Below, in pieces: positions 1,133 to 63,432 of a DNA stretch of 64,000 nt (position 1 is its first letter; the number at the start of each line of letters is the position of its first letter). The notes under the pieces were generated by a model. It had not been told where the DNA came from and searched no databases. It worked only from the letters and a program-made list of their open reading frames with translations. The position numbers were made by a program, and so were the translations under genes. The stretch comes from Altererythrobacter ishigakiensis (GTDB lineage Bacteria; Pseudomonadota; Alphaproteobacteria; Sphingomonadales; Sphingomonadaceae): NCBI RefSeq assembly GCF_001663155.1, contig NZ_CP015963.1:868001-932000 (forward strand). Reading direction: 5' to 3'.

Positions 1133-2419
1133 TCAAGGCAATTCTGTGTTTGCTACAAAGCCTAGGTCGCGCGCAAAAAGTGCCTCGACTTGCTGATGTG
1201 TGTGTTTCATCCGATCATAGTTTTTTGCCGCGTGATCTCGATCAGGATAGGGCCATTCTTCCAACCGGCCAGAATATCGCCCTAAAAAGCCTATTCCCTT
1301 TTCGAGTCCTCGCCCGTCATCCAGCTGTTCAGCCCACAAGTTATGATCCACACACTCGGCGATAGTCGCCAGCCTGCCGGCCCCCGCCAAGACGTAATTC
1401 GAATAGTGCCAGCTCCGCGTGCGATTGAGTTCAGACGTGAAACGTCCGTCTTGATCCATTTGCTGCGCGAGGCGCTTGTTGAGAAAATCACTCGAGACAT
1501 TCCTTGCGAGTTCCTCGTTTCCCGCGAAAAGCGCGAAGTGAGAAAGATAGAAGTCATAGAAGATAGCGTGATTGTTGGTCTTGTTCCTTGATGCCTTGCC
1601 ATTTTCGCTCGTCTGAAGCCACGAAACGAATTGTGCATACCAGTCTTGGAGGTTGGCATGCTGCGATGAAGAAAGGGCTCCTGATGGCAGGATTAAGCCT
1701 ACGCTCTCGATGACGGTCGAAAAATCGGATGCTTCGATTATACCTTCGCCACGTCCATTTACTCGCCCTGGAACACCCTGAGCGAAATCCATGTTGGGCG
1801 ACATTCGCGTGTCCGGGTCAAGAAACCAGATGTCCACAAGCATTGCCGCGCGCGTGGCATAGCGAGCATCCTCCGTAAGGAAATAGCCAAGCGCCAGTGC
1901 TTCCAAATCGGCACCTAACTGGCTCAAGCGGCCCTTGTCGAAATCAGGTCCGTTGCGCTCGGGATTCACGACACCATCGCGCCGAATATAGGGTAACCCG
2001 TCTGCCTGGTCGGGGTTGGGCCACCAATATGGCCCGATAGAAGCGTAGTCATTCGATGAGGCACCTGGAACGTTCTTGCCTTTGTCGGTCACAGAATAGG
2101 GCCCACGATGCAAAGCCTCTTCGGCTTGCGCAAGTCGTGCTTTCCGTTGTTCCGGGTCGGATGCGATTGCCTCGAGCCATTGCGGACGCCAGAGAAATGT
2201 CTTCCTTCCGTTAAAATCGCTGGAATAGCCAAGCGAGCCTCGGCATTCGTAATTTGCGTAAACGGGCCCGTCTTCGGTCAGCGCCGATACGGAGTCTGGC
2301 GAAGTGAACATTGCAAAGAATGCACTCATCAGTGTGAGGGTACGTATTACAAACTCCCTGGATACTAGAGTGAGTCCGCGCTTATCTGACGGGAGATAGA
2401 GAGACCAGAATTTTCGCAT
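1133..2419 (-). CDS. Alginate-lyase-family secreted protein (PF05426-like)
   Basis: The 428-residue protein has an N-terminal hydrophobic export segment (about residues 23-47, ending SVSA), then an alpha-helical (alpha/alpha-toroid) domain. The motifs NDYASIGPYWWPNP and LPYIRRDG (about 125-155) and KTNNHAIFYDFY (about 284-295) are the hallmarks of the PF05426 family, the NNH being the catalytic-site asparagines and histidine. Members act on uronic-acid polymers by beta-elimination; the substrate here cannot be read from sequence. The upstream 22 residues before REF are unusual for a signal peptide, so the true start may be internal (ATG at 2329). It is divergent from the oxidoreductase at 2531 and is the left-most gene of the polysaccharide region. 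Confidence 0.75.
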   Translation of the reverse strand: MRKFWSLYLPSDKRGLTLVSREFVIRTLTLMSAFFAMFTSPDSVSALTEDGPVYANYECRGSLGYSSDFNGRKTFLWRPQWLEAIASDPEQRKARLAQAEEALHRGPYSVTDKGKNVPGASSNDYASIGPYWWPNPDQADGLPYIRRDGVVNPERNGPDFDKGRLSQLGADLEALALGYFLTEDARYATRAAMLVDIWFLDPDTRMSPNMDFAQGVPGRVNGRGEGIIEASDFSTVIESVGLILPSGALSSSQHANLQDWYAQFVSWLQTSENGKASRNKTNNHAIFYDFYLSHFALFAGNEELARNVSSDFLNKRLAQQMDQDGRFTSELNRTRSWHYSNYVLAGAGRLATIAECVDHNLWAEQLDDGRGLEKGIGFLGRYSGRLEEWPYPDRDHAAKNYDRMKHTHQQVEALFARDLGFVANTELP

Positions 2420-2530
2420 GGCAATCCGATCTAAGTTTTTGACGTCACCTGTCTACTTGCTCTGACCACACCATCCGGTCATATTTGGATCGATCAATAT
2501 CCCATCCAACAAATAGGCGGGCGTCCATAG

Positions 2531-3469
2531 ATGAAGCTAGGTGTGATAGGTGCGGGGCGAATTTTGTCGGCGTATCTGGAAGCCTCGGATCCATCAGGTA
2601 TCGAGATTGCCGCAGTGTGCGATGTGGGCAATCCCATTCTACCCGACGACATCAAAGATGTGCCCTTCTTTGCTGACTTTCGCGACATGGCAAAGTTGGC
2701 TCAACTCGACGCCTTTCTGGTAGCCGTGCCCAGCTCGAAACATTTCGAAGTTACCAAACTCGCGTTAGATGCGGGCCGACCTCTTCTAATTGAAAAGCCG
2801 GTTACATTGAATTCTGCTGAGTTCGGTCTGCTGCGCGATGAAGCTTGCGCGCGTGGGACCCCTGTCTTTTCCTTGCTTCACGCCCAGTATGGGTCCGAAG
2901 TGATTGCAGCGCGGAAGTATTTCCAGCAGGTCAAGGCATCGAGCCGGACCCCAGTCACAGTGCATTGGCAAACATTGCTTTGTGATCCCTACGAAGAGAA
3001 CCCTGCTGCGCAGGCCTCATTGATCAATGCCTGGGCGGACGGCGGAATAAACGCCATTTCCATTGTGCTGGCGGCTTTTCCTGGAGCGCAACTGAAAAGA
3101 GTTACCGGACAGCACATTCCCTCAGAGCGCAATTGGGCTGAGATCAGATCGCGCCAAACTTTCAAACTGTCAGGAGATTGGGCTGGTTCAGTTACGATCG
3201 AGACAGACTGGTCTCAGGGTCACGGACTCAAGACATCCAAAGCAGAACTAAATGATGGGGTCAGAATTGAGCTGCATCATACCAATGAGACATTCGAGAT
3301 CACGGGTGACGTTCACGACACCGTTCAATGCTTCCAGAACGAGCGCTCTCGTCTTGCAAATCATTATGTCGAAGCATTCAGAGACGCGCGTGAACACATT
3401 GAGCAGGGGCGGTCGAACTGGGAATTCAGCCAAGCTTGTCATGCCAGCTATTTTTCCTGCTTCCCTTGA
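2531..3469 (+). CDS. Gfo/Idh/MocA-family NAD(P)-dependent oxidoreductase
   Basis: The 312-residue cytoplasmic protein begins with a Rossmann fingerprint, MKLGVIGAGRILSAYL, and carries the family's EKPVTLN motif near residues 93-99, where the Lys is the usual catalytic residue. It lacks a signal peptide. Family members oxidise or reduce sugars, inositols and sugar acids; the substrate is not recognisable. At 312 residues it is slightly short of the typical 330-380. It is divergent from the alginate-lyase-family gene across about 110 bp that contains TGACC-n9-GGTCA (2463-2481), a possible but weak operator. A role in handling a minor sugar or uronate of the polymer is inferred from position only. 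Confidence 0.75.
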   Translation: MKLGVIGAGRILSAYLEASDPSGIEIAAVCDVGNPILPDDIKDVPFFADFRDMAKLAQLDAFLVAVPSSKHFEVTKLALDAGRPLLIEKPVTLNSAEFGLLRDEACARGTPVFSLLHAQYGSEVIAARKYFQQVKASSRTPVTVHWQTLLCDPYEENPAAQASLINAWADGGINAISIVLAAFPGAQLKRVTGQHIPSERNWAEIRSRQTFKLSGDWAGSVTIETDWSQGHGLKTSKAELNDGVRIELHHTNETFEITGDVHDTVQCFQNERSRLANHYVEAFRDAREHIEQGRSNWEFSQACHASYFSCFP

Positions 3470-3619: not shown

Positions 3620-3721
3620 AAGCGCACGGTGAGCTTCGTGTATTAACTCGGCTGCGGTAAGACATACAGTTGGATATTGATGTGTGGCGGCAAGCCGATC
3701 ACAACAGGGAGGGAAATCGAT

Positions 3722-5161
3722 ATGACCAAGTTCCGCAATGCAGCTTTTGGCGGGATGCTCTTGTTCTTGGCATCGTGCGCAACTTTCACCCCCCAAAACA
3801 AGAAGCCCACTCCCTACTTTGCCGACAATGGGTTTGGCGAAGGGGTGGCGGTTGTCCAGCATCCTGCAGGCGAGTTCCTCAACGGGGTCACTTATGTCTC
3901 TTATCAAGGACCCAATGAAGATCCTTATGTTGCCGCCTATAACCACGAGACGCATGAGTGGATTGGCCCCTTCAAGGCTGGCACTAGCATCTTGGGCAAA
4001 GACCCGGCGAAGAAGATTGACAGCCATGGCAAGCCCACCATGATCATTGATGATGCAGGTTACATCCACATTTTCTACGGCGGGCACGGTGGAGTGACGG
4101 ATCTGCACGGTGCGAACCCCATCGGCGATGCTCACTCAGGCGAAAATCGCCATGCCGTCTCCCAAAATCCTTATGACATTACCAGTTGGAGAGACCTCAA
4201 CAACGTCTCGCCTTTTGGCACGTACAACCAGGCTATCAAGATGGATAATGGCGATATCTACCTGTTCTATCGCCACGGAGCCCATCGCAGCAACTGGGTC
4301 TATCAAAAATCGACAGATGACGGCCTAACCTTTGCCGAACCGGTTTCGTTCCTGAAAACCAAACGCCGAGATGACGGCATGGGAACAGACAGCTGGTATG
4401 CTAGCGTCTCCAAAGGGCGAGGTGACGAAATAGTACTGGGCATTGATTACCACTACTGCTGGGACCAAGGCGCTCCGCGCAACAATCGCGGCGGGCATTC
4501 AACCGAGCGCAAGAACCTCTACTTCGTTAGCTTTGATACCGAGGAAGATCGCTGGAAGAATGTTAAGGGCGAAGAGTTGACCCTTCCCATCACCAAAGAG
4601 GTCGCCGATCATAAAGCGCTGGCGGTTGATACTGGCGACTTGTGGACGTTCAACGGCATCACGCGGGTGGACGCAGAAGGCACGCCGCATATCAACGCCT
4701 ATATCGGCGAGGATATCGGCTGGCAGATTGGCGGCCCCAAACAAGCCAGCTATTTCCGCTGGAATGGTCAAGCATGGGTGGGCGAATTCAAAAGCGGACT
4801 GCCAATTGGCCGAGGTGACTATGTGGTCGATGGCCAGAATGTGAGTTTTCTCCTGAGTGGGATAAAACCGGATAGCGACATTACCCAAGTGCGTTGGTGG
4901 GAAAGCCGCGATAGCGGAATGAGTTTTGGACCAGGCAAACTGTTGCTTGAGTTCAAAGGCTCAGACGCCCCGCCTAATAGAGAAGCGCCCGACAGGCCAG
5001 CCTCGCTCAGCAATCTCGACAGCCCAGGTTCTGCCGCCAGCGCTTTCATTCGCAATGCCCATCCCGACGCACGAATGATCATTGCAGAGAAGCCGGAAGG
5101 TTCTGATTGGCGCCGCATGTATCTTGTTGGCGACAACGGACCAGTTATGCGTTCAAACTAG
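3722..5161 (+). CDS. BNR_4 beta-propeller lipoprotein, candidate PL24/PL25-type ulvan lyase
   Basis: The ATG at 3722 follows GGGAGGG and gives a 479-residue lipoprotein (lipobox LASC, Cys19). Aspartate-rich propeller blades carry the motifs MIIDDAGYIHIFYGGHGG (about 107-124), ENRHAVS (His144) and LFYRHGAHRS (about 181-190). The family known as BNR_4 includes the PL24 and PL25 ulvan lyases, seven-bladed propellers that use histidine and tyrosine for beta-elimination next to rhamnose-3-sulfate; His122, His144 and the YRH triad are candidates here. It is a close paralogue of the gene at 56568, with conservation from residue 35 through the whole propeller. It lies just before a sulfatase. Enzyme activity is inferred, not shown. 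Confidence 0.7.
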   Translation: MTKFRNAAFGGMLLFLASCATFTPQNKKPTPYFADNGFGEGVAVVQHPAGEFLNGVTYVSYQGPNEDPYVAAYNHETHEWIGPFKAGTSILGKDPAKKIDSHGKPTMIIDDAGYIHIFYGGHGGVTDLHGANPIGDAHSGENRHAVSQNPYDITSWRDLNNVSPFGTYNQAIKMDNGDIYLFYRHGAHRSNWVYQKSTDDGLTFAEPVSFLKTKRRDDGMGTDSWYASVSKGRGDEIVLGIDYHYCWDQGAPRNNRGGHSTERKNLYFVSFDTEEDRWKNVKGEELTLPITKEVADHKALAVDTGDLWTFNGITRVDAEGTPHINAYIGEDIGWQIGGPKQASYFRWNGQAWVGEFKSGLPIGRGDYVVDGQNVSFLLSGIKPDSDITQVRWWESRDSGMSFGPGKLLLEFKGSDAPPNREAPDRPASLSNLDSPGSAASAFIRNAHPDARMIIAEKPEGSDWRRMYLVGDNGPVMRSN

Positions 5162-5200: not shown

Positions 5201-5367
5201 TATTGGCAACGAAGGCCAGAGAACACAGAGTGAATTGTACGAGAGCATGTTAGCCGACACTAGCGCACTCAGGCTTGGTTGAGCGCTACAAACGCGGTTT
5301 GATTGCTCTTGCTCAAGATTGATCACAAGAGCTGGCTTTTGCTTGAGCCTTTGCTAGTTTGTCGACT

Positions 5368-7047
5368 ATGCGAACCGTCCTACTCATTGCATTTGTTGCC
5401 TTGGTACAGGCGTGTACTCATTCCGATTTTGGGCCTCGCAATCATGAATTGCGAACGTCCGTTCAGCCCAACATAATTCTTGTCACCGCGGAGGATCTCG
5501 GGCCACGTTTGGGGTTCATGGGGGATCGAGCCGCGGTCACTCCCAACCTGGACCGTCTCGCATCGCAAAGTGTTGTATTCACGCGAGCGTTCACCACAGC
5601 TGGTGTCTGCGCGCCATCAAGAGCTGCGCTGATTACTGGGGTGCACCAAACTACGCTCGGTGCGCATAATATGCGAACCGCGAGTTACGGTGAGAACATG
5701 GGCGAGGGTGCGCCCTATCGCGCTGTTCCTCCGCCAGAGGTGAAGGCATTTCCCGAACTGCTGCGTGCCGCAGGATACTTTACTGTGAATGACTTCAAGA
5801 CCGACTACCAGTTTGGCGAAGTCTTCACCGTGTGGGACGAGAACGAAAAAGGAGCGGATTGGAATTCGCGCAAAGAGGACCAGCCATTCTTCGCGATGCT
5901 CAATTTCGAAGTCACGCATGAAGGGCGCATCTGGGCACCCGACACCGACCCTGCCCTACATCCCATTGTGCCGCGCCGTCTTGCGCTGAATGCGGAGATC
6001 GACGCGGCTAAAGACTTCCCTCCCACTGATCCGGCCGCTTTACGCATTCCTCCCTACTGGCCGGATACGCCGGTTGTACGGGCCAATCTTGCGCGGTTCT
6101 ACGACAATATCCGATTGTTGGACCGACAAGTGGGCGAACTATTGACCCGGCTCGAGGCGGAAGGACGTTTCGAGGACAGCATCATCATCTTTACTACTGA
6201 TCACGGTGACGGCTTGCCGCGACACAAACGCACGATCTTCGACAGCGGGACACATGTTCCCTTGTTGGTACGATTTCCCGATGGGTTTGGGGCTGGGACC
6301 AATCGCGGCGATCTCGTCAGTCTTATCGATCTTGCGCCGACCATCTTGGATTGGGCAGGCGGAACTATTCCAGAGTATATTCAAGGACGTCGCCTGTTCG
6401 ATGATCCGGCACCCGATGCAATCTTCATGGCGGGCGACCGGTTCGACGAAGTGCCACAGCGCTTTCGCGGCGCGCGTGAGGAGAGGTGGCACTATATCCG
6501 CTATTTCAGTGATGAGCCGGTGATCCCCTCTCTCAGCTATCAGAACGTCAATCCGATTATGCGGGAGATGCGGCGTCTTCATACAGAAGGCGATCTATCG
6601 CCGTTGCAGGCTTCTTATCTCGCGGACGTTGCGCCTCGCGAATTCCTGTTCGATACCGAGGCCGATCCCGATGAGGTGCGCAATGTCGCTGATAGTCCGG
6701 GCTTTGCAGCTATCAAACACCGGCTGTCAGCCCGGCTAGAGAATTGGATCGAAGAGAGCGGCGATATGGGCCGTATCCCGGAGCGCGACCTAGTCGCACG
6801 TATCTGGCCGCGCGGGCAGCAACCGCAGACTGCGATAGTGGAAGCGTGCTTGAACTCTGATGGCAATGTCTTGCTCACGTCTGCAACCATTGGCGCATCG
6901 ATCGGCTATGGCGGGGTAGACGGCGAGGCGCTGCTCTATGTGCGGCCTATCGATGCGACATCACCGTTCAAAGCTAAAGCGGTCCGCTATGGATACAAGC
7001 CATCGCGGATCGAGGATTTCGATCCAGCCATGCTTCCCATCTGCTAG
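5368..7047 (+). CDS. S1-family (type I) sulfatase lipoprotein, S1_8-like
   Basis: The preferred ATG at 5368 gives a 559-residue lipoprotein (lipobox VQAC, Cys16); a TTG lies three codons upstream. Cys81 in CAPSRAALITG is the formylglycine site (C-x-P-S-R). Metal and sulfate-pocket motifs follow: TAEDLGP near 40-46, TTDHGDG near 277-283, and LPRHKRTIFDSGTHVPLL just after. The HGDGLPR-K-R...DSG pattern and the PPYWPDTP...FYDNI segment resemble the S1_8 subfamily, which includes sulfatases in algal-polymer loci; this assignment is from memory. The enzyme would remove sulfate esters from oligosaccharides in the periplasm. The FGE at 58029 is its likely activator. Confidence 0.85.
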   Translation: MRTVLLIAFVALVQACTHSDFGPRNHELRTSVQPNIILVTAEDLGPRLGFMGDRAAVTPNLDRLASQSVVFTRAFTTAGVCAPSRAALITGVHQTTLGAHNMRTASYGENMGEGAPYRAVPPPEVKAFPELLRAAGYFTVNDFKTDYQFGEVFTVWDENEKGADWNSRKEDQPFFAMLNFEVTHEGRIWAPDTDPALHPIVPRRLALNAEIDAAKDFPPTDPAALRIPPYWPDTPVVRANLARFYDNIRLLDRQVGELLTRLEAEGRFEDSIIIFTTDHGDGLPRHKRTIFDSGTHVPLLVRFPDGFGAGTNRGDLVSLIDLAPTILDWAGGTIPEYIQGRRLFDDPAPDAIFMAGDRFDEVPQRFRGAREERWHYIRYFSDEPVIPSLSYQNVNPIMREMRRLHTEGDLSPLQASYLADVAPREFLFDTEADPDEVRNVADSPGFAAIKHRLSARLENWIEESGDMGRIPERDLVARIWPRGQQPQTAIVEACLNSDGNVLLTSATIGASIGYGGVDGEALLYVRPIDATSPFKAKAVRYGYKPSRIEDFDPAMLPIC

Positions 7048-7054
7048 CAGGGGA

Positions 7055-7909
7055 TCAGTCAGCGGACTCGATCTCGATATGCATCCATGCCTGCATGGTT
7101 TCGCGCGGAGCCAACGCCGCCATTCCGCCAGGCTTCATATTAATCGCATCGGTTTCATGACTTACGGGTTCGACGCAAAAGAAATCCCGCCCGTGTGGCG
7201 AATAGACGACGGTGAACGGCAAGTTTTCTGACGGCTTAATGGTCGCCTTCGCGGCAATATCGGGCCAGATCAGCGTAAGCGGTCCATGTCGGCCAGTATA
7301 GACCGTATCGACACTGCGCGAGCCAACCGGCGCGCCTTTCCACCAATCCGCGGGCTCTGACAGCTCAACCAAGCGGGTCGGCAAACAGCCATTATCGACA
7401 GACCACTCGCCCAGATGCAGGCCATGATAGAGAGCCTCGGCCCGGCGCGGAAAGTAGGGATGGAAACCCAGGCCCGCCGGCATCACTGTCTCGTCAAGAT
7501 TGGTAACTTCGAGCTGAAGAAGCAAGCCATTCTCTCCGAGCAAGATGTATTGTCGCGCGCGATACCGCCATGGCCACTCGCTGGCGTCATGAGTGTGCTG
7601 GATGACAACACGCGTCGCATCAGCGTCGACAACTTCCCACGCGCTTAGCCAGCCAAAGCCATGGATAGGATTGTTGCCATCAAGGGATGGCGCGTTCGGA
7701 GCAAGCTGGAAGGTGTTCCCGTCCATTTCGAATTGGCCAGCTTCGATCCGGTTTGAGAACGGCACAATCGGGAAACATGCTGTTTCGGACATTGTACCAG
7801 GCTTTGAGGCACGAAGAATCGCATGCCCCGCCCATTCGAATGCAGCAAGCGAGCCACCCCGTTCAGGATCAATAACAACGCGATAGTCGCCGGAATTCAG
7901 CTCGAGCAT
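7055..7909 (-). CDS. Aldose 1-epimerase family protein (sugar mutarotase)
   Basis: The product begins [19 protein letters not shown] and runs to 284 residues; an in-frame ATG at 7939 would add ten residues. Family motifs are NNPIHGFGW (about 79-87), GFHPYF (about 149-154) and [11 protein letters not shown] near the C-terminus, whose Glu is the expected catalytic base. It interconverts alpha and beta anomers of an aldose before isomerisation. Its start overlaps the end of xylA by 13 bp, so it is the third gene of a xylB-xylA-mutarotase operon, which suggests D-xylose as substrate. Confidence 0.85.
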
Positions 7910-9219
7910 CGCGCCCGATTTACAATGTTCTCGCACCATTCTTGTTGTCCCGATCTAGGGTCAGGGGCGTGGTTGGCAGCGATCGCATGCTCAGCGACGC
8001 TGGCAAGAGTAGCGCCTTCTGCATGAATTGCTTTGCCTAACGCTCCTTGCCAGCCGGAATACCGCTCAGCACGAAAACGCTCGAGCTCGCCATTTTCGAT
8101 AATTGCCGCGGCGTTCAGCAGTCCTTGCGCGATCGTATCGACGCCGCCGATGTGCCCGTGGAAAAGGTCAGCTGTATCGATCGACTGACGACGGACCTTT
8201 GCATCGAAATTGAAGCCACCGGTGGTAAACCCTCCAGCACGAAGAAACTCAAGCATCGCGAGTGTCCATTCTTCGGTCGAATTCGGGAATTGATCAGTAT
8301 CCCACCCATTCTGCGGATCACCGCGATTGGCGTCGACAGAGCCAAAGATTCCGAGCGCGCGGGCCATAGCCAATTCGTGCTCAAAGGAGTGCCCGCCGAG
8401 AGTGGCGTGGTTCGCCTCGATGTTAACTCTCACCTCTTTCTCTAGACCGTAGCGGGCCAGGAAGGCGTAGACGGTTTGCGTGTCGAAATCGTACTGATGC
8501 TTGGTTGGCTCATGCGGTTTAGGCTCGATCAGGATCGTGCCCTTGAAGCCAATGCGATGCTTGTGATCGACTACCAGCGAAAGGAAGCGACCGAAATTGT
8601 CCTGTTCGATGCCAATTTCGGTGTTGAGGATGGTGTCGTAGCCTTCGCGGCCTCCCCACAGAACATAATTTTCGCCGCCCAATCGGTGAGTGGCATCGAG
8701 CGCATCGCGTACCTGCATAGCCGCCCAAGCGTAGACCTCTGGATCGGGATTGGTCGCAGCCCCTGCCATGTAGCGCGGATGGCTGAAGAGATTGGCTGTG
8801 CCCCATAGCAGCTTGCGACCGTGCCTTTCCTGAAGCTCTCCCAGATGCTCGACAGCTTCGGCAAAGCTTGCACGGAAGCCTTTCGCATCGCCCGCATCAG
8901 CCATGACATCGACATCGTGGAAACAGTAGAAAGGTAGGTCGAGCTTTTCGACGAAAGCAAGTGCAGCTTCGCGTTTGGCCCGCGCGGCCGTGCCATCATT
9001 GGCTCCGGAAAGCCAGGGCCTGTCGAATGTGCCGGCGCCGAAGACATCGCTTCCGGGCCAACAAAATGTATGCCAGAAGCAAACGGCAAACCGCAGGTGG
9101 TCTTCCATCCGCTTGCCCATGACCAGCCGATCCTTGTCATATACGCGGTAAGCGAGGTCCGAGCTCGCGCTTGGGTCAAAGCGGATGGTATCGAATTGAG
9201 AAAAGTAGTCGGCAGACAT
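7897..9219 (-). CDS. xylA: Xylose isomerase
   Basis: This 440-residue protein converts D-xylose to D-xylulose in the cytoplasm. The residues known for class II enzymes fall at the same numbers as in E. coli: His101 and Asp104 (CFHDVDV), Glu232 and Lys234 (IEPKPHEP), Glu268 and His271 ([10 protein letters not shown]) and Asp296 (VDANRGD). LWGGREGYD is at about 187-195. It sits 11 bp behind xylB and overlaps the mutarotase, forming one minus-strand operon. Xylose is a genuine side component of ulvan, so this arm fits the rest of the region; xylan is the alternative source. Confidence 0.97.
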
Positions 9220-9230
9220 GGCAAGAACTT

Positions 9231-10673
9231 TCAGCGTGATTTGAGAAGGTCGATGGATTGGCGGTATTGAGTGAGCTTGGGGGTCAGAAGTTCGACAAGC
9301 TCTGGGTCAGGATCGATGGTTTCGCGAATTTCTGGACGTTTGCAGACATCCGCAGGCGCTTCTGAAGTTGCGGCCATTCGAGCCAGGTGGGCTGCACCCA
9401 TTGCTGGCCCGACGTCGCCTCCTTCCAGATAGTCGAGCCGGACATTGAGCGCCGACGCGAGTATGCGGCCCCAAAAACGCGAACGTGAGCCCCCTCCGAT
9501 GACCGAAAGCCGTTCAACTCTGGTTCCAGCCTCGCGCAAGACCGCCAGCCCGTCTGCATGCGCAAAAGCAACTCCTTCGAGCACAGCACAAGCCAGGCGC
9601 TCGGGCCTTGTAAGATTGTCGCATTCGAGCCATCCTGCGCGGAGATGTGGGTCATTGTGCGGGGTTCGCTCGCCGCTCAAAAAGGGCAAGAACAGTTCTG
9701 GACCAGACCCGGCACCGGCCTCCTCAGCCAGTGCAAGGAAGTTAGCAACGTCTCCAATACCTAGCTGTTGCGCCGCCCACTCGATGCATGATGCAGCCGA
9801 AAGGTGTACGCTCATTTGTTGCCAGGTATCAGGCAAAGCGTGGCAGAAGGCGTGAACGGCGTTGGCCGGATTGGGGCGAAAGCTATCCGTTGATACAAAT
9901 ATTACTCCGGATGTACCCAATGAGAGTAGGCCGTCTCCATTTGAGATGACGCCCACTCCGATCGCCCCAGCCGCATTATCTCCGGCTCCGGCCGCGACTG
10001 GCACTCGCTCCATGCCCCATTGTTCGGCAATTTCGGTGAGCAACTTGCCGGTGGCTGTGCTCCCTTCGAAGAGAGTCGGCATGTGTTCTTGCGTCAACCC
10101 GGTTGCATTCAGCATTGTGTCTGACCAGCATCGTTTCTCGACATCCAGCCAAAGCGTACCTGCGCTATCTGACATGTCTGATGCTTTGTCGCCTGTCATC
10201 AAGAGGCGAACGTAGTCTTTAGGCAGCAGGACGCTGCGTACATTCGCAAAGACTTGAGGTTCATGCTCGCGAACCCAGAGCAGTTTGGGTGCGGTAAATC
10301 CGGGCATCACTAGATTTCCCGTGATTACGCGACTTTCAGGAACCGCACTTTCGATTGCATGGCATTGCGCGGTGGACCTCCCGTCATTCCAAAGGATTGC
10401 AGGGCGTAATGGCCGATCCTGCCCGTCAAGAAGAGTCGCGCCGTGCATTTGGCCGCTGAGCCCAATCGCTTCAACCTTAGCCCGGATGTCAGAGTCCAAT
10501 TGCATGACGGCCGCGCAAGTGGCGCGCCACCAGTCTTGCGGATCCTGCTCCGACCAGCCTGGCACGGGATTGGACACCCTTAATGCGCTTGTACTTCGTG
10601 CGACGACGGCACCGGTCCGGGAGGCAACGATCACCTTTACCCCAGATGTTCCTATGTCGACGCCCAAATACAT
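9231..10673 (-). CDS. xylB: Xylulokinase (FGGY family)
   Basis: The 480-residue product begins [14 protein letters not shown]. The ATG at 10673 has GAGGGG eight bases upstream; another ATG at 10679 is too close to it. FGGY features include the N-terminal phosphate loop [15 protein letters not shown] (about 70-78, the xylulokinase-specific pocket), [13 protein letters not shown] with the catalytic Asp, and [11 protein letters not shown] in the C-terminal ATP domain. It phosphorylates D-xylulose to xylulose 5-phosphate for the pentose phosphate pathway. It is the first gene of the xyl operon and is divergent from the symporter gene across a 149-bp region holding a 16-bp palindrome. Confidence 0.95.
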
Positions 10674-10783: not shown

Positions 10784-10821
10784 GCGCCGGAAAAGCCGGT
10801 CATCGAAGGCAAGGGGGGGAA

Positions 10822-56567: not shown

Positions 56568-57983
56568 ATGTCGATGAAGCACTCTATACTCCAATCTGCC
56601 CTTGCTGTTTCGTTGGGCTTGGCAATCGCTGGCTGTAGTCCTGCCTATCTAGAGACGGCATCCAGCGAATCTGCTGCTGAATACACGGATCACTTTGCGG
56701 ACAATGGTTTAGGGAATGCCGTTGCCGTTATCCAACACCCGGCGGGCGAGCACCTCGATGGCATCACCTATGTCAGCTATCAGGGACCTCTGGAGGACCC
56801 CTATGTTGCGACCTACAACCATGAGACCGGCGAGTGGTTCGGTCCGTTCAAGGCCGGTACGAGCGCTATGGGAAAAGACCCAAGCCGCAAAATTGATAAC
56901 CATGGCAAACCCACGCTGATCATTGATGACGCTGGATACATCCATATCTTTTTCGGCGGACATGGCGGACTGCGTGAGGTGCACGGGGAAAACCCGCTAG
57001 GCAACCATCACTACGGCGAAAACAAGCACGTCGTGTCTAAGCGGCCATATGACATCACCGAGTGGGAAGAACTCGACACGATCCCGCCCTTTGGCACTTA
57101 CAATCAGGTGGTCAAAATGGACAATGGCGACATCTATCTTTTCTATCGTCACGGGGCGCATCGAAGCGACTGGGTTTATCACAAGTCGACCGACAATGGT
57201 CGCACCTTCGGGGAGCCTGTGTCCTTCCTAAAGCACAAGCGCCGGGATGATTTGCCTGCAGTCGACAGTTGGTATCCCTATGTCACCAAGGGAATTGGCG
57301 ACGAGATTATTGTCAATTTTGACTACCATCTTTGCTGGGACAACGACGGTGCGCCTGATGCACGGGGCCACACAGCCAATCGCCAGGACATATATTACAT
57401 GGTCTTCGACACTGGCGAAAATCGGTGGCGCAACATTCAGGGTGAAGCCTTGCCAATGCCGCTGACACGTGAGGTGGCAGAAGAGAAGACCCTAGTTGCC
57501 CGGTCGGGTGCGCTCTGGTCCTTCAATGGCCCAGTTGCATTGGACAACAAGGGGTATCCGCATATTGGCATTACTATGGGCGAGGACTTGGGTGTAACCA
57601 AAACTGGTGGCCCTAAAGAAATGCGCCATTATCGCTGGACAGGTAGCGAGTGGGTTGGCGGCAACCCAGGTATTCTACCCATCTCTAACGGTGCAATTGA
57701 TCCGGTAGAACCGGAACATGTTCGTTTCGTTCTCGCATCTCAAAACCAAACTGGTGAAGGCAATGTCAGTTGGTGGGAAAGCAAAGACGGTGGCGAGAGC
57801 TTCGTGAAGACACGCGAATTGCTGCGCAGGCCCAACGCGAACTTTGCGATCAGTAGCTTCATCCGTAATGCCCATCCTGACGCCAAACTTATCGTGGCAG
57901 AGCGGCTGCGTGGTACTGACAGGCGCAATATGTATCTGCTCGGTGAGAACGGCCCGGTGGTAAGGGCCGCGAGCTCCCGTTAG
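56568..57983 (+). CDS. BNR_4 beta-propeller lipoprotein, candidate PL24/PL25-type ulvan lyase (copy 2)
   Basis: The 471-residue lipoprotein (lipobox AGC, Cys23) starts at ATG 56568 with AGGA upstream. It matches the gene at 3722 through the whole propeller: LIIDDAGYIHIFFGGHGG (about 117-134), ENKHVVS (His154), LFYRHGAHRS (about 191-200). Both keep the same histidines (here His132, His154, His195), supporting a conserved catalytic centre like that of propeller ulvan lyases. It follows GH105 by 12 bp, the expected next enzyme for its unsaturated product. Possible duplication origin is noted in the findings. Confidence 0.7.
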   Translation: MSMKHSILQSALAVSLGLAIAGCSPAYLETASSESAAEYTDHFADNGLGNAVAVIQHPAGEHLDGITYVSYQGPLEDPYVATYNHETGEWFGPFKAGTSAMGKDPSRKIDNHGKPTLIIDDAGYIHIFFGGHGGLREVHGENPLGNHHYGENKHVVSKRPYDITEWEELDTIPPFGTYNQVVKMDNGDIYLFYRHGAHRSDWVYHKSTDNGRTFGEPVSFLKHKRRDDLPAVDSWYPYVTKGIGDEIIVNFDYHLCWDNDGAPDARGHTANRQDIYYMVFDTGENRWRNIQGEALPMPLTREVAEEKTLVARSGALWSFNGPVALDNKGYPHIGITMGEDLGVTKTGGPKEMRHYRWTGSEWVGGNPGILPISNGAIDPVEPEHVRFVLASQNQTGEGNVSWWESKDGGESFVKTRELLRRPNANFAISSFIRNAHPDAKLIVAERLRGTDRRNMYLLGENGPVVRAASSR

Positions 57984-57993
57984 AAGGTGCCGA

Positions 57994-58029
57994 ATGGTTC
58001 AACTTCGGCTTCAATTGGTATGGTGCTAA
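57994..58029 (+). CDS. Eleven-residue leader ORF overlapping the FGE start
   Basis: ATG 57994 has GAAGG six bases upstream and encodes MVQLRLQLVWC before TAA, which overlaps the ATG at 58029 (TAATG). The FGE start itself has no clear ribosome site, so translation would depend on this leader. The peptide has no recognised function. An alternative FGE start at GTG 57987 would make this ORF irrelevant. Confidence 0.35.
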   Translation: MVQLRLQLVWC

Positions 58030-59051
58030 TGCACAAGTTAGTGGCCGTTGCAGCGATTTGTGGGCTCGCCGCGTGCAACGCGCCACCAAGCAAAGATGCG
58101 AGTGCGCCAACGCCGACCAAGGCGAGCGATTTTGCGGCAGTTGTAACCTGCAATCAGCCCTCCCGTACACCGGTGCGGATTGATGGCGGTACATTCGTGA
58201 TGGGCAGTAATGCCCTATACGCGGAGGAAGGCCCGGAACGGCAGACAATCGTGAGTGGATTCTGGATCGATCCGCACGAAGTTACCAATCACCAATTCGC
58301 CGAATTCGTTGATGCAACGGCCTATGTGACTGTCGCGGAAAAACCGGTCGATCCTGCGCAGTTTGGCGTTCCGGTGGAGCAGATCCCAGCCTTCATGCTG
58401 GAGCCTGGCTCTGCCGTTTTTACTCCACCTGAACGACCATCAAGCCGCTACAGCGACTGGTGGGAGTATCTGCCAGGGGCAAACTGGCGAAGACCCTATG
58501 GGCCAGACGGACCCGAAGCACAGCCTGACCAGCCTGTGGTGCACCTCGCTTGGGACGATATGCTTGCCTATGCGGCTTGGAAAGGCGGCCGGATTCCAAC
58601 TGAGGCTGAGTGGGAATTTGCCGCTAGTGCAGGCGCGGAGAAATACACCGAGCAACCCGATCCCCGCTTCGCGAACAGTTGGCAAGGCGTATTTCCGGTA
58701 GTCAATGAAGGTAGCGACGGTTTCAAAGGCATCGCACCGGTCGGGTGCTTCGAACCAAACGCCTATGGGCTTTACGACATGGTCGGCAACGTCTGGGAAG
58801 TCACTGCAGACTATTTTCGCCCCGGCCACGATCCAGCAGAGCAGGACAATCCGCGCGGCCCCAGCGAAAATGCGGCCTATGACCCGCTCAATCCCGGCTT
58901 GGCCAGCCGCGTGATGAAAGGCGGCAGTTATCTTTGCGCGCCTAACTATTGCCAGCGTTACCGCCCAGAAAGCCGGCAAGGTCGCGATCCAGGACTGGGC
59001 GCATCAAATGTCGGTTTCAGACTGGCTTACGATCAGCCTCCTGAAGTCTGA
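58029..59051 (+). CDS. Formylglycine-generating enzyme, aerobic (sulfatase-modifying factor), lipoprotein
   Basis: The 340-residue protein begins MHKLVAVAAICGLAACNAPP, a lipoprotein signal. The FGE-sulfatase fold shows IDGGTFVMGS, WIDPHEVTNHQFAEFV, GGRIPTEAEWEFAAS and YDMVGNVWEVTADYF. The copper-binding pair Cys303 and Cys308 in GGSYLCAPNYCQRYR has the C-x4-C spacing of active aerobic FGEs. It turns the sulfatase cysteine into formylglycine and so would activate the products at 5368, 44716 and 53724. Sulfatases activated outside the cytoplasm would suit a lipoprotein FGE; that one of them has a Tat signal makes cytoplasmic activation possible too. Confidence 0.88.
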   Translation: MHKLVAVAAICGLAACNAPPSKDASAPTPTKASDFAAVVTCNQPSRTPVRIDGGTFVMGSNALYAEEGPERQTIVSGFWIDPHEVTNHQFAEFVDATAYVTVAEKPVDPAQFGVPVEQIPAFMLEPGSAVFTPPERPSSRYSDWWEYLPGANWRRPYGPDGPEAQPDQPVVHLAWDDMLAYAAWKGGRIPTEAEWEFAASAGAEKYTEQPDPRFANSWQGVFPVVNEGSDGFKGIAPVGCFEPNAYGLYDMVGNVWEVTADYFRPGHDPAEQDNPRGPSENAAYDPLNPGLASRVMKGGSYLCAPNYCQRYRPESRQGRDPGLGASNVGFRLAYDQPPEV

Positions 59052-59061: not shown

Positions 59062-60195
59062 TCATCTGAGCTGCAAGTCAGGGTAGAGGGTCCGCTTGGT
59101 CAATTCAGGATCGAGATTGAAATGGGTCGCGCATGAGGTGGCAATCACTGTCTCAAGAGCACTGGTCGGCTTCAAATCTCGTCCTTGATAAAGGTCATTT
59201 TGCCTAAGACCTGGCCAATCACCGAGCACAGTTCCACCATTCAGCGTTCCACCATAAAGCAAAGTGGTGGAAGCTGTGCCGTGATCGGTGCCGTTGGTTC
59301 CGTTCACGGCTGCAGTGCGGCCGAATTCTGTCGCGACAACAACGAGTGTATCGTTCCAAACAGTGCCCAGGCCTCGCCTCAACGAACTGATAAGCGTATC
59401 GAGATTTCCCAGCTCGCGTCCTAAACGCTGACGTTGGCCATTGTGCGTGTCCCAGCCAGTGGTCTCGATCATCGCAACTTGAGCACCATCCTTGGCCGTC
59501 AGGAGACGGGCAGCCAATGCGCCTACCTCCGCTGATTGACGCATATTGCCGGCACCGCCCATGCTTTCAGCCACGGTCCGGGTCGCGACGCTCTCTTCCC
59601 AAAGCATGTGAAGCCGTTCGTCGCCCATGTAGAGATGGCCAATCCGCCGCATATAATCATCTGCAGCATCGGGCAGGCGCGATGGAGCGTAGGAGCCGGA
59701 TTTGTTCTGGCCTTGCAAAGCCAGCGGAATGTTCTGGGAAATGGCAAGTCCGGAATTCTCGCCTTCGGGCAGCAATCCGAGCAACCGGTTCAGCCAACCA
59801 TCCTTGCGCTCATATGGCCTCAATCCGCCACTCTCTATGATATTCTGTCCGTCAAAATGTGATCGATCACGGTAGCCCGATGCGACCGCGTGAACTGCCA
59901 TCATCTCTCCGTCGGCATACATTTTCGCAGAATTGATGAGTGCAGGATGGAGGGCAAACAGACCACCTATCTGAGGCGCTTCCGCATAATCTTCAGCCAA
60001 CATTCCTCGCAATGTGGAATAAGAAGGATCGCCCACGGGTGCGAGAATGCCCAATCCGTCCGCAGCCCCGCGTTGAAGGATAAATACGAGCCGTTTCGCA
60101 GTGCCGCTCTGCGCAGCAAACGAAATTCTGGGAAGCCCTGCGACGGCGAGTGCAGCAGCGCTGCCGCCTAGAAGTTTTCGCCTGTTAATGATCAT
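59062..60195 (-). CDS. DUF1501 protein, Tat-exported
   Basis: ATG 60195 overlaps the DUF1800 stop (ATGA) and gives 377 residues beginning MIINRRKLLGGSAAALAVAG, a Tat signal. KRLVFILQRGAADGLGI (about 35-51), VASGYRDRSHFDGQ and TEFGRTAAVNGTNGTDHGTAS are DUF1501 features; the family shares the alkaline-phosphatase/sulfatase core fold. Function is unknown. It forms a pair with the DUF1800 gene, a combination seen widely in proteobacteria and planctomycetes. Its location between an FGE and uronate genes suggests, without proof, a role with sulfated glycans. It converges on the FGE gene. Confidence 0.85.
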   Translation of the reverse strand: MIINRRKLLGGSAAALAVAGLPRISFAAQSGTAKRLVFILQRGAADGLGILAPVGDPSYSTLRGMLAEDYAEAPQIGGLFALHPALINSAKMYADGEMMAVHAVASGYRDRSHFDGQNIIESGGLRPYERKDGWLNRLLGLLPEGENSGLAISQNIPLALQGQNKSGSYAPSRLPDAADDYMRRIGHLYMGDERLHMLWEESVATRTVAESMGGAGNMRQSAEVGALAARLLTAKDGAQVAMIETTGWDTHNGQRQRLGRELGNLDTLISSLRRGLGTVWNDTLVVVATEFGRTAAVNGTNGTDHGTASTTLLYGGTLNGGTVLGDWPGLRQNDLYQGRDLKPTSALETVIATSCATHFNLDPELTKRTLYPDLQLR

Positions 60196-61547
60196 CGCCA
60201 CATCGCCTCCGGGCTCGCCAGCAGCAGCGCCATTGCCTGTGCTGGACTTTCTGCTCGCGCGACCGCAAGCGCGCTATGGTCACTCCATACGCCGGGGTAG
60301 AGCAACGGTCCTATTGCTCGTGCATCCTTGCCAGACCCTCGCCTGCCGAATGCCTGAGCGGCTTCGACACGCCGGTGCAACGCTTCGGGGGCGGCCCATC
60401 GAGTTACTGTGTCGTCAAAGCCGGCCGGCGACCCTGGCTTCCAAAGATCCTGACCAAGATTGACCATGATTCTGCGGACCGCCATTGGGTCAAACTCCGC
60501 TGGCTCAACCGCGCGCAGCGAAGCGATACTCCAATCCCAAGGACTGAGAAATTTTCGCCGCTCGGGACCCCACACTTCTGGAGAGTCGAGCAATGCCAAC
60601 GTAACTGCCTTCAGATCTCCATCCGTTGCCATGAATCGTGCCTTCAACCGATCGATGAGCGAGCTTGGAGGATCGTCAGACGTGAAATGCCGAGCCAGTT
60701 TTGTGGCGACATGCTTGGCTGTCGCAGGGTGTGCTGCCAGATCATCAAGAATTTGCACTACTTCGCGTGCGCCATTTTCCCGATAAATTTTGCCGAGGAC
60801 GGTCTTGGGTCCAGGTTCGTGCAAATTCTGTACGAAAGTATATGGCTCGTTCGTGCCCCGTCCACGACGACGTACGGCGGGAATGGTGTGCCCAGTCAAT
60901 GCCTTTGCAAAACTTGTAACATCTGCCTGCGAGTAACCTGATCGGACTCCCAGAGTGTGGAGTTCGAGAATTTCACGGGCAAGATTCTCGTTGAGGCCGG
61001 CTCTCCGTCTGCCGGATTGCGCCGCTCTTCGAGCACGTTGACTGTTGGGACCAATCGATTGGGCTTGATCCAGATACAGCAACATGGCTGGATGGAGTTC
61101 GGCGGACTTAAGCATGTCCGAGAAGCGCCCGAAAACGTGGGGCCGAATAGCTTCAGCCTCGAAACTACCTGCCAGCGGACCAGTCCCCGGCTTCTCCGTT
61201 GAGACGGCAAAGTGATTGGCCCAGAATTGGACCATCCGTTCTGCGAAGGGCGCAAGGGTTCGGGCGGAGAGTTCAATGCGTGCTGAAATCGCCTCACGCA
61301 GGTGTCCCCGCAAAGCGCGTCTGGCAGTACGCTTGGCTTCCTCATCGGCATTGCGAAGACGGCGAAAGGCGCCGAACTCGCGAACCAATGGAGTGGAAGA
61401 AGGAAGACTATCTAGTTCTCGAGGATAGGGGTCATATTGCTCCACTTGTGACTTGAGCCAAGCCTTTGGGCTCCCATCCAGGGCAGCTGATGGGAAACGG
61501 CCATACCCGAACCGGGTAAGAGCTACACTCCACATGTGATCTGACAT
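60192..61547 (-). CDS. DUF1800 protein
   Basis: The 451-residue protein has ATG 61547 with GGAGAG upstream and no evident signal peptide. MVQFWANHFAVS (about 110-121), LNENLAREILELHTLGV (about 194-210), YSQADVTSFAKALTGH and HPATAKHVATKLARHF identify DUF1800. These helical proteins always travel with DUF1501; their partnership is suggested to be a secreted complex, but this copy lacks a clear export signal. Stop overlaps the DUF1501 start. Activity is unknown. Confidence 0.85.
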   Translation of the reverse strand: MSDHMWSVALTRFGYGRFPSAALDGSPKAWLKSQVEQYDPYPRELDSLPSSTPLVREFGAFRRLRNADEEAKRTARRALRGHLREAISARIELSARTLAPFAERMVQFWANHFAVSTEKPGTGPLAGSFEAEAIRPHVFGRFSDMLKSAELHPAMLLYLDQAQSIGPNSQRARRAAQSGRRRAGLNENLAREILELHTLGVRSGYSQADVTSFAKALTGHTIPAVRRRGRGTNEPYTFVQNLHEPGPKTVLGKIYRENGAREVVQILDDLAAHPATAKHVATKLARHFTSDDPPSSLIDRLKARFMATDGDLKAVTLALLDSPEVWGPERRKFLSPWDWSIASLRAVEPAEFDPMAVRRIMVNLGQDLWKPGSPAGFDDTVTRWAAPEALHRRVEAAQAFGRRGSGKDARAIGPLLYPGVWSDHSALAVARAESPAQAMALLLASPEAMWR

Positions 61548-61719: not shown

Positions 61720-61734
61720 TGACACCGGTTACCT
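61720..61734. promoter_or_regulatory. LacI-type operator, copy 3
   Basis: TGACACCGGTTACCT lies in the 268-bp region between divergent DUF1800 and the dhuI-like gene, 82 bp before the latter. It matches copy 2 in 14 of 15 positions. The rest of 61548-61815 is AT-rich at 61600-61660 and holds the likely promoters. Confidence 0.75.
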
Positions 61735-61815: not shown

Positions 61816-62448
61816 ATGAAGATTGCATTGATCGTTGAGAACAGCCAGGCCGCGAAGAGCGAATTGATCCATGATGCTCTGACTTCAGTTGTTGAACCAA
61901 TGGGCCATCAGGTTTTTCACTACGGAATGTATACGCCTGAAGATAGGGCCCATCTGACCTATCCCATGAACGGGCTTTTATCAGGAGCTTTGCTTAACTC
62001 CGGAGCTGCGGATTTTGTCGTCACAGGCTGCGGTACGGGAATGGGCTCTATGCTTGCGCTCAATGCGATGCCAGGGGTTTTCTGCGGGCTTGTCATCGAT
62101 CCGACCGACGCATTCTTGTTCAGCCAGATCAATGCAGGCAATGCGATTGCCATGCCCTATGCGAAAGGATTCGGCTGGGCGGCCGAACTCAATTTGCAAG
62201 ACTGTTATCGCAAGCTTTTCGAGAACGAACCTGGCTTGGGATACCCAAAAGAGCGCGCCGAGGTCATGGCGAAGAATCGTGGCATCCTTGCTGACCTCAA
62301 AAAAGTCTCCTGCCATGACATGCTTACGATCCTCAAGAACGCCGATCAGGAGTTGTTGAAGACAGCGATTTCCGGAGAGCGGTTTGAAGAGTACTTCTAC
62401 CCCAACTCGCAGGATCAAGAGATTAGCGCCTATTTGCGAGGTCTCTGA
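61816..62448 (+). CDS. RpiB/LacAB-family isomerase, candidate DhuI (4-deoxy-5-hexosulose-uronate isomerase)
   Basis: The 210-residue protein starts MKIALIVENSQAAKSELI. It has the RpiB-fold features VVTGCGTGMGSMLALNAMPGV (about 69-89) and NAGNAIAMPYAKGFGWAAEL. RpiB itself is about 150 residues; the longer C-terminus (DLKKVSCHDMLTIL...EISAYLRGL) and the length near 210 match DhuI, the streptococcal enzyme described for unsaturated uronates from glycosaminoglycans. The gene precedes a KdgK-like kinase and has the LacI-type operator upstream, which supports the uronate role. It would do the KduI reaction with an unrelated fold. Sugar-phosphate isomerase is the alternative. Confidence 0.75.
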   Translation: MKIALIVENSQAAKSELIHDALTSVVEPMGHQVFHYGMYTPEDRAHLTYPMNGLLSGALLNSGAADFVVTGCGTGMGSMLALNAMPGVFCGLVIDPTDAFLFSQINAGNAIAMPYAKGFGWAAELNLQDCYRKLFENEPGLGYPKERAEVMAKNRGILADLKKVSCHDMLTILKNADQELLKTAISGERFEEYFYPNSQDQEISAYLRGL

Positions 62449-62544
62449 CGCTGGCTATTCTGTGACAGGTGGCGAGGCTAAAGCACTCAGGAAGACGCAA
62501 ATTCCAAGTTCAAGCGATGGCGAAGAGTTTTATCGAGTGGAACA

Positions 62545-63432
62545 ATGACGACGTTTATCTTTGGCGAGGCGATGCTGGAGTATCACAGCCATGGCGGCGA
62601 GGGCCTCCGTTACGGCGGGGATACGCTCAACACGGCCATCCATCTTGCGAGAGCCGGCCACGAAGTTGCGTTTGTAACAGCGCTTGGAACTGATCCTATC
62701 AGCGATGCGATGATTGCCGCTTGGTCAGCGGAAGGAATTGATACCCGATACGTTCTTCGACATCCGACCCGTAATCCCGGGATTTACGCGATCCACCTAG
62801 ATCAACATGGTGAGCGGAGCTTTCTTTACTGGCGAGATCGCAGCGCAGCTCGCGAAATGTTCGACTTGCCGGGCATTCTTGAAGCGCTCGAAGAAGCTGC
62901 CGAGGCGAGGCTAGTCTATTTCAGCCTCATCTCTCTAGCGATTGCAGAAGGCGAAGGCCGCGAGAAATTGCTGAAGCTCGCCTCTTCAAGGAAGAGCCGC
63001 GAAGCCGCTGTCGCATATGACAGCAATTTCCGGCCTGCCCTTTGGCCAAGTTTGACCATTGCGGAAGCAACATCACAAAAAGCGATGGGCGTTTGCACAA
63101 TCGGTTTGCCGACAAACACTGACGAGCAAGATCTATGGAGCTCCAAGGCTGAGGAGCATGAGATCGCCCGTCGTTGGCTTGCTGCAGGATGCAATACCGT
63201 CGCGGTCAAGGCGGCAGAGAAAGGCTGCGTTGTCGCGACAAGTAAGAGCCCAGAGCCAAGGTTGCTTCCAGCAGAACCAACCCAAGTGGTAGATTCTAGC
63301 GGGGCTGGAGACGCGTTTAACGGTGGTTTCCTAGATGCCTGGCTGAACGAGCAATCTATCGATGATTGTGTTGAAGCAGGGCAAGCTCTGGCGCGAAAAA
63401 CGTTGGGTCACCAAGGAGCCATCGCATTTTAG
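62545..63432 (+). CDS. kdgK: 2-keto-3-deoxygluconate kinase-like (PfkB family)
   Basis: The 295-residue sugar kinase begins MTTFIFGEAMLEYHSHGGEG with the substrate-loop GGDTLNTAIHLARAG (about 24-38). DSNFRPALW (about 154-162) is the KdgK hallmark, and VDSSGAGDAFNGGFLDAW (about 249-266) carries the catalytic Asp and anion hole. It phosphorylates 2-keto-3-deoxygluconate, the product of KduD, to KDPG. It follows the DhuI-like gene by 96 bp on the same strand. No KDPG aldolase is present in the window. Confidence 0.9.
   Translation: MTTFIFGEAMLEYHSHGGEGLRYGGDTLNTAIHLARAGHEVAFVTALGTDPISDAMIAAWSAEGIDTRYVLRHPTRNPGIYAIHLDQHGERSFLYWRDRSAAREMFDLPGILEALEEAAEARLVYFSLISLAIAEGEGREKLLKLASSRKSREAAVAYDSNFRPALWPSLTIAEATSQKAMGVCTIGLPTNTDEQDLWSSKAEEHEIARRWLAAGCNTVAVKAAEKGCVVATSKSPEPRLLPAEPTQVVDSSGAGDAFNGGFLDAWLNEQSIDDCVEAGQALARKTLGHQGAIAF

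Follow-up and report, generated by a model that had tools for sequence, protein, structure and literature searches.

In Formosa agariphila, ulvan is reportedly broken down by a cascade of lyases, GH105 enzymes, sulfatases, a rhamnosidase and a xylosidase, encoded by a polysaccharide utilization locus (PUL) of the SusC/SusD type of Bacteroidota. Alteromonas sp. 76-1 grows on ulvan, and its ulvan plasmid is described as carrying two PL25 (polysaccharide lyase family 25) genes, three PL24, GH105, GH106, GH145 and sulfatases, together with GH43, GH78 and GH88 (PMC6431674; GH, glycoside hydrolase). The ulvan locus of Pseudoalteromonas marina PUA1001 is described with PL25, GH105, GH106, sulfatases, a TonB receptor, a TRAP (tripartite ATP-independent periplasmic) importer, XylE and the rhamnose path, plus PL24, PL40, GH88, GH115, GH43, GH39 and GH78 (PMC13050008). 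We have analyzed a stretch of 64,000 nucleotides (the window) from Altererythrobacter ishigakiensis. The source chromosome is a single contig (NZ_CP015963.1) of 2,673,978 bases, and the window is its bases 868001-932000. We predict that the window holds a chromosomal ulvan utilization locus of an Erythrobacteraceae bacterium, with a probability of roughly 0.92. In profile searches of the window proteins the ulvan-type gene set spans about 62 kb.

The cascade of lyase, GH105, sulfatase, rhamnosidase and xylosidase reported for the Formosa PUL is also predicted for the window. Unlike that PUL, the locus, which has two TonB receptors, gave no SusD-type Pfam match in general scans of the window proteins. 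A SusC/SusD-type PUL was rejected for want of it, and to that extent the original description as a TonB-receptor-only system is borne out. The features listed first above for PUA1001 recur in the window. The GH115, GH43, GH39 and GH78 models gave no match in the window scans, and PL24 is the best solved match for none of the four window propellers. The available portion of the PUA1001 account makes no mention of PL42/GH145 (PMC13050008), whereas the window has two PL42-type proteins. The Alteromonas system is plasmid-borne, whereas the locus studied here is chromosomal, on a contig that also carries Entner-Doudoroff genes.

Pfam profiles were scanned against 43 window proteins at an expect value (E) of 1e-5 and NCBIfam profiles against 20, with one extra Pfam scan. 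Every gene class named in the original prediction, an earlier reading of the same window as an ulvan-type system, was recovered. One cluster contains ulvan lyase, GH105/GH88, sulfatase with formylglycine-generating enzyme (FGE), rhamnose and uronate catabolism and an outer-membrane receptor. Ulvan appears to be by far the best-fitting substrate, because the locus has a PL25 pair with its catalytic residues, a GH105 protein nearest to 4CE7, sulfatases with FGE, and three sugar arms for rhamnose, uronate and xylose. The earlier reading took these three arms to be the three components of ulvan. Coordinates below are window positions, followed by the strand.

BNR_4 matches in the whole genome comprise just four propellers, all at this locus. 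All four had been proposed as candidate lyases. Two of them, at 3677-5161 (+; PL25 A) and 56568-57983 (+; PL25 B), are predicted to be PL25 ulvan lyases, and from their lipoboxes both are probable lipoproteins. The other two appear to be PL42-type proteins and not ulvan endolyases. At E = 0.001 the sole PDB matches of PL25 A and B are the solved PL25 ulvan lyase entries 5UAM and 5UAS, with scores against 5UAM of 531 and 607 bits respectively. On alignment to 5UAM the catalytic Asp-x-His, His, Tyr and Arg set is conserved in both (D115, H117, H137, Y183 and R199 in A; D110, H112, H132, Y178 and R194 in B). Roles have been described for the two His, the Tyr and the Arg (PMC13050008) and for the Asp of the His-His-Asp triad (PMC10951650), and the solved relatives are listed with ulvan lyase activity in Table 3 of PMC6431674. 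The 5UAM protein, PLSV_3936, is a single gammaproteobacterial enzyme, whereas the window has a pair. A tree of 58 proteins was built by a quick method, from 56 of 78 PL25 loci plus the window's two, leaving out second PL25 copies in the relatives' genome stretches. In this tree PL25 B falls in a sphingomonad clade of nine rows, with a Shimodaira-Hasegawa-like approximate likelihood ratio test (SH-aLRT) value of 99, and PL25 A groups with two Caulobacterales proteins (SH-aLRT 99) within a gammaproteobacterial group. Given that the two lie in separate clades, the pair probably stems from two PL25 subclades. The closest relatives of PL25 B are from Pontixanthobacter rizhaonensis (82%) and an uncultured Erythrobacter.

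GH105 B (55297-56556, +) has as its best PDB match 4CE7 (177 bits), an unsaturated 3S-rhamnoglycuronyl hydrolase that we take to be from an ulvan degrader. GH105 A (29946-31238, +) is a candidate, found with the Pfam GH88 model PF07470 (247 bits), which covers both GH88 and GH105. The three sulfatases and FGE that had been called are present, and these three are the only PF00884 sulfatases of the genome: Sulfatase 1 (5359-7047, +; 125 bits) with the motif CAPSR, Sulfatase 2 (44716-46203, −; 193 bits) with CSPSR and Sulfatase 3 (53724-55199, −; 147 bits) with CGPSR. A C-x-P-S-R site is of the kind that requires FGE, and the FGE gene (57987-59051, +; PF03781, 222 bits) directly follows PL25 B. 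The profile searches also found the expected GH106 alpha-L-rhamnosidase (36304-39483, +; PF17132, 484 bits) and a GH3 candidate beta-xylosidase (12309-14702, +; PF00933, 214 bits), the latter with an RR motif near its N-terminus that resembles a twin-arginine (Tat) signal.

All members of the rhamnose path were matched. These are RhaM mutarotase (43435-43749, −; PF05336, 94 bits), RhaI isomerase (28741-30033, +; TIGR02629, 637 bits, just below the curated NCBI cut-off of 647), an FGGY kinase with an FGGY_C_2 match (25115-26515, −; PF21546, 232 bits) that is probably specific for rhamnulose from its context, the bifunctional aldolase/dehydrogenase RhaD-ADH (26572-28719, +; NF006189, 1103 bits) and L-lactate dehydrogenase LldD (23964-25145, −; NF033901, 579 bits). 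A plus-strand open reading frame (ORF) at 43408-43782 was considered for RhaM and rejected in favor of the minus-strand gene. The uronate path was likewise matched, with KduI (43852-44688, +; NF002091, 370 bits), KduD (19442-20209, −; TIGR01832, 398 bits), an isomerase of the RpiB family (61816-62448, +; NF006753, 308 bits; PF02502, 62 bits) for which we presume the name DhuI, and the 2-keto-3-deoxygluconate kinase KdgK (62545-63432, +; PfkB, 172 bits), whose NF052444 score of 237 bits is below the curated cut-off of 400. Adjoining kduD is a gene for a protein of 269 amino acids (20315-21124, −), present in four of the seven relatives' regions described below. By eye it resembles FAH (2-keto-4-pentenoate hydratase), and Pfam and NCBIfam scans of it gave no match. 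In a PL25-bearing sphingomonad outside the genus (L010) this gene directly precedes dhuI and kduD. The sole match of the genome to KDPG/KHG aldolase (for 2-keto-3-deoxy-6-phosphogluconate and 2-keto-4-hydroxyglutarate) is Eda, whose gene lies away from this locus in a chromosomal zwf-edd-glk-eda cluster (L126, 780-5719). The xylose path has XylA (7897-9219, −; TIGR02630, 617 bits), XylB (9231-10679, −; TIGR01312, 545 bits) and a XylE-like sugar porter (10822-12234, +), which scores 357 bits with TIGR00879, over its cut-off, and 361 bits against a curated XylE cut-off of 608. An aldose 1-epimerase gene (7055-7939, −; PF01263, 134 bits) is also present.

Both TonB-dependent receptors (receptor 1, 16257-19367, −, 497 bits; receptor 2, 31401-34829, +, 446 bits) match TIGR01782. 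Three inner-membrane importers had been expected and were found. Besides the XylE-like porter there is a TRAP system comprising the binding protein DctP (50735-51778, −; PF03480, 252 bits), the small permease DctQ (50244-50738, −; NF007374, 46 bits, below the cut-off of 260) and the large permease DctM (48952-50463, −; PF06808, 402 bits), whose ORF overlaps dctQ and probably starts further downstream. The third is an NCS1-like permease with about 12 membrane spans (47193-48896, −). It has no Pfam match even at E = 5, its relatives are called purine-cytosine permease or NCS1 symporter in some sources, and it is present in all seven relatives' ulvan regions. As a guess, it is a candidate monosaccharide importer.

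The remaining two propellers belong to a kind often labeled as hydrolases, and they look like PL42-type lyases. For the protein at 41944-43404 (+) the nearest match is 7esl, a PL42 rhamnose-glucuronate lyase (115 bits). That at 34756-36291 (+), whose start is probably downstream, is closest to the former GH145 group (5muk, 139 bits). Both have Asp-x-His, a second His 20 residues later, and a Tyr and an Arg 16 apart (D157, H159, H179, Y214 and R230 in the 34756 protein). We compared them with 21 proteins from PL25 loci and regions, taken as matches above 60 bits with open frames longer than 380 amino acids; copies cut at the ends of stretches are missing from this set, and some of its members share a contig or come from close strains. 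The equivalents of PL42 Asp83, His85, His105, Tyr150 and Arg166 are present in both window proteins and in all 21 others, so that D-H-H-Y-R is invariant in 23/23. The characterized PL42 enzyme is FoRham1, an L-rhamnose-alpha-1,4-D-glucuronate lyase, which is likewise a seven-bladed propeller with a His-His-Asp triad, Tyr and Arg (PMC8377490, PMC10951650). It differs in being fungal and acting on gum arabic, where it cuts Rha-alpha-1,4-GlcA (rhamnose linked to glucuronic acid) by elimination (PMC8377490). The predicted PL42 assignment and the residue pattern across the 23 proteins are counted here as new, as are the elimination cycle proposed below and the LacI-type site shared by the TRAP importer and dhuI genes.

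It is possible, though we think it less probable, that in the same ulvan locus these two propellers are alpha-L-rhamnosidases (former GH145) or binding proteins, with rhamnose freed hydrolytically alongside GH106. In the PDB the 34756 protein does match the GH145 set 5muk/5mum/5mvh best, and the ulvan plasmid of Alteromonas 76-1 has GH145 among its dbCAN2 assignments (PMC6431674). Moreover the lyase residues alone are no proof of lyase activity, because Bacteroides GH145 enzymes are reported to keep the anterior lyase residues with lyase activity absent (PMC8377490). Yet the nucleophile of GH145, His48 in BT3686 numbering, is found in none of the 23 proteins. At this position nine have R, six Y, six K and two Q; in the window it is Arg118 for the 34756 protein and a Tyr for the 41944 protein. 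The lyase residues, by contrast, do not vary. This argues for PL42-type lyases in the window, and suggests that GH145 proteins such as that of the Alteromonas 76-1 plasmid may be PL42-type.

From the gene families, catalytic residues, gene order and operator-like footprint that are observed, we infer a course of degradation with its substrates, order of steps, cellular locations, transport roles and LacI ligand. PL25 lyases, at the surface or in the periplasm, would cut ulvan to short unsaturated oligosaccharides, which the TonB receptors would carry into the periplasm. There the GH105 enzymes would take off the unsaturated uronate, and the FGE-matured sulfatases would strip the rhamnose 3-sulfate. 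Ulvan holds the same Rha-alpha-1,4-GlcA linkage as the FoRham1 substrate, with sulfated rhamnose. The two PL42-type proteins may act as exo-lyases that release the exposed rhamnose from this linkage by elimination, leaving the next uronate unsaturated, so that GH105 would act again and the cycle repeat. Repeats with xylose would fall to GH106 and GH3. Separate importers would take up rhamnose, xylose and unsaturated uronate, and the uronate would pass through KduI/DhuI, KduD and KdgK to KDPG and the chromosomal Eda. LacI would sense the uronate arm and control the TRAP importer and dhuI-kdgK.

Models of the uronate isomerase UxaC and the mannonate dehydratase UxuA give zero matches in the A. 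ishigakiensis genome, and both match in control genomes. Saturated glucuronate would thus be without the standard isomerase route, oxidative routes being outside that search. It is because of this absence that the elimination cycle is proposed, and we put the odds that PL42, sulfatase and GH105 deliver the uronates as unsaturated sugars at about even. PL42-type proteins occur (E = 1e-30) in 35 of 53 PL25-bearing genomes. They are in 10/10 of the A. ishigakiensis genome and nine family relatives, with two copies each, in 19/22 Gammaproteobacteria, in 3/4 other Alphaproteobacteria, in 2/16 Bacteroidota (both weak) and in 1/1 Verrucomicrobiota. UxaC was sought in 52 PL25-bearing genomes, drawn from 44 of the 78 loci plus nine genomes with L044 left out. 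It is present in 0/9 family relatives, 19/26 other Pseudomonadota (L010 included), 16/16 Bacteroidota and 1/1 Verrucomicrobiota. The contrast between phyla in PL42 and UxaC is real in this sample; a link between PL42 and UxaC is not supported. A wider scheme, equally balanced in our judgment, is that marine Pseudomonadota use the PL42 exo-elimination cycle, with all uronate leaving 4,5-unsaturated, that Erythrobacteraceae could thereby live on ulvan without UxaC/UxuA, and that Bacteroidota work hydrolytically. The last part is suggested because the 16 Bacteroidota genomes examined, which exclude Formosa, mostly lack PL42 and keep UxaC.

Several observations weigh against this scheme. The absence of UxaC is mostly background, since the enzyme occurs in only 16 of the 114 genomes of the genus, and the difference from the PL25-bearing members of the genus (0/8) is within chance. 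With this low baseline, the idea that PL25 bearers lost UxaC adaptively was rejected. L010 bears PL25 and has UxaC. Among the 19 Pseudomonadota with UxaC, 17 also carry PL42, for which reason PL42 was rejected as a strict replacement of UxaC, and two UxaC-free PL25 genomes are without a PL42 match. GH106, if acting on Rha-GlcA, would leave saturated glucuronate. Lastly, FoRham1 has only trace activity on the ulvan polymer (PMC8377490), the substrate proposed here being the desulfated oligosaccharide.

Three further polysaccharide-related proteins, a PL38-like enzyme and two beta-helix proteins, are a poor fit to a pure ulvan locus. The gene at 1133-2419 (−) encodes a PL38-like lyase, possibly acting on glucuronan or another uronan. 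It matches the Pfam Alginate_lyase model (223 bits) and, among solved PF05426 lyases, 3nfv (213 bits) and 8bdq (163 bits), both of which we take to be PL38 rather than PL5. The beta-helix proteins are a lipoprotein with a lipobox (14721-16160, +; PF13229, 41 bits) and a pectate-lyase-like protein (21297-23012, +; PF12708, 36 bits) with a weak BT3328 match of 73 bits against a cut-off of 1100. From the PL38-like lyase a second uronan substrate may be suspected. The locus might then serve the green-algal cell wall more broadly, with ulvan plus glucuronan as its targets; the latter would be the substrate of the PL38-like enzyme and perhaps of the beta-helix proteins. We hold this tentatively, as the less likely case. 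PL38 does include two glucuronan lyases, but the family also holds alginate and glycosaminoglycan lyases (PMC13027841). The gene is shared with P. rizhaonensis, but this is just one of the seven relatives' regions.

We retain ulvan as the preferred substrate. Other exopolysaccharides also contain rhamnose, uronate and sulfate, and turnover of a non-ulvan sulfated rhamnose-uronate polymer of microalgal or bacterial origin is an alternative. We consider it improbable, given that at E = 0.001 every solved relative of the PL25 pair is an ulvan lyase (PMC6431674, Table 3). Pectin lyase and GH28 models gave no match among the 43 window proteins at E = 1e-5, save the 36-bit generic RHGA/epimerase match of a beta-helix protein. 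A pectin (rhamnogalacturonan) locus, in which GH105, GH106, KduI/KduD and pectate-lyase-like beta-helix proteins also occur, is very improbable and was rejected, because pectin lyase families went unmatched in the window scans while two PL25 proteins, sulfatases with FGE and a GH105 nearest to 4CE7 are present.

Conservation among relatives was examined with 44 query proteins against seven relatives' regions, taking matches above 60 bits with at least 45% identity. In all seven Erythrobacteraceae regions 21 of the 44 are present with their order kept, and five more are in six of the seven. Relatives with this 21-gene core include Aurantiacibacter marinus and P. rizhaonensis. The left part of the locus (PL38, XylA/B/E and Sulfatase 1) is more variable. 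TonB receptor 1 has a match in relative G491 at 45% identity, which may be a different receptor. In the A. marinus ulvan region (L114, about 8400-17700) the matches are consistent with three tandem GH106 genes. Counting A. ishigakiensis itself, 8 of 114 genomes of the genus carry PL25, as do 7 of the 397 genomes sampled from the family.

A LacI regulator gene (51914-52969, +; PF00356, 68 bits; PF13377, 123 bits) lies beside dctP, and the gap between them contains a LacI-type operator-like site, TGGTAACCGGTGTCA (51792-51806, +). The site is identical in the window and in all six relatives with an alignable gap, and a version with two mismatches adjoins dctP in A. marinus and L010. A second site with one mismatch (61720-61734, −) lies upstream of dhuI. 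Of four dhuI-bearing sequences, three have the site upstream of the gene at zero or one mismatch (one mismatch in the window and in P. rizhaonensis, none in G491). The fourth, L010, has a three-mismatch version only, at 13274, upstream of an apparent run of the 269-amino-acid gene, dhuI and kduD. In relative G490 a one-mismatch copy lies near the contig end beyond DUF1800, with no gene seen there. The window has three matches at up to three mismatches against 0.89 expected, a number equaled in 8 of 100 shuffles, and the genome has 11 at up to two mismatches against six for a backward control. A third genomic site with at most one mismatch (2322698) is inside the start of a short-chain dehydrogenase/reductase ORF. 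As these counts are weak, the weight rests on conservation between species. The conserved site, a candidate operator, appears to link the TRAP importer to the dhuI genes.

A DeoR regulator gene (23128-23967, +; PF00455, 131 bits) is present in all seven relatives' regions. Between the kinase and RhaD genes is a conserved block (26548-26573), a candidate regulator site seen in the window and all seven relatives' regions. Upstream of the XylE-like gene is a perfect 16-base palindrome (10768-10783), a candidate operator of the xylose arm; perfect palindromes of 14-18 bases occur at this one place only in the scanned gaps. For a block upstream of GH105 B, a search for its repeat gave no second intergenic site.

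The two regulators, the PL38-like lyase and the beta-helix proteins were additions to the gene list of the original prediction, as were two further proteins. One is a DUF5060 protein with a TIM barrel like those of GH5/GH140 (39485-41944, +). The other is a DUF4861 lipoprotein (46203-47174, −; PF16153, 164 bits), for which a fold search with a predicted model (predicted local distance difference test 89) gave weak mutarotase-like supersandwich matches only. A DUF6250 lipoprotein (52966-53700, +; PF19763, 203 bits) and a GFO_IDH_MocA oxidoreductase beside PL25 A (2531-3469; PF01408, 54 bits) are each absent from all seven relatives' regions. Between FGE and dhuI sits a pair of genes for DUF1501 (59062-60201, −; PF07394, 116 bits) and DUF1800 (60192-61547, −; PF08811, 381 bits) proteins, which may be passengers or have some other role. 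The pair adjoins PL25 in six of the seven relatives' regions; the exception is A. marinus, whose contig stops soon after PL25. An ulvan-specific role for the pair was rejected, since DUF1501 is found in 84 of 114 genus genomes. The locus is bordered on the left by peroxiredoxin and cytochrome bd oxidase genes and on the right by an AAA ATPase gene. Rfam and tRNA searches of the window gave zero matches. The window and its right flank both have a G+C content of 0.55, and the left flank has 0.58; with values so nearly equal, composition shows no clear island signal.

Erythrobacteraceae have been reported on Ulva and other seaweeds (PMC10233909), and they are placed among the families rich in seaweed-polysaccharide enzymes, as judged by proxy families including PL25 (PMC9676036). 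A locus of this type had been called little described in this group, and the literature agrees: we found no paper on an ulvan locus of Sphingomonadales or Erythrobacteraceae, in a search that covered subscription journals thinly. As far as seen in that literature, the locus is ordinary in kind and new in lineage. It adds the Erythrobacteraceae to the groups predicted to use ulvan through a whole pathway, and the LacI-type site may provide a marker for the uronate regulon. If the PL42 reading is true, the proteins labeled GH145 at ulvan loci would be lyases, their annotations would be corrected, and the second half of the ulvan cascade of Pseudomonadota would be redrawn.

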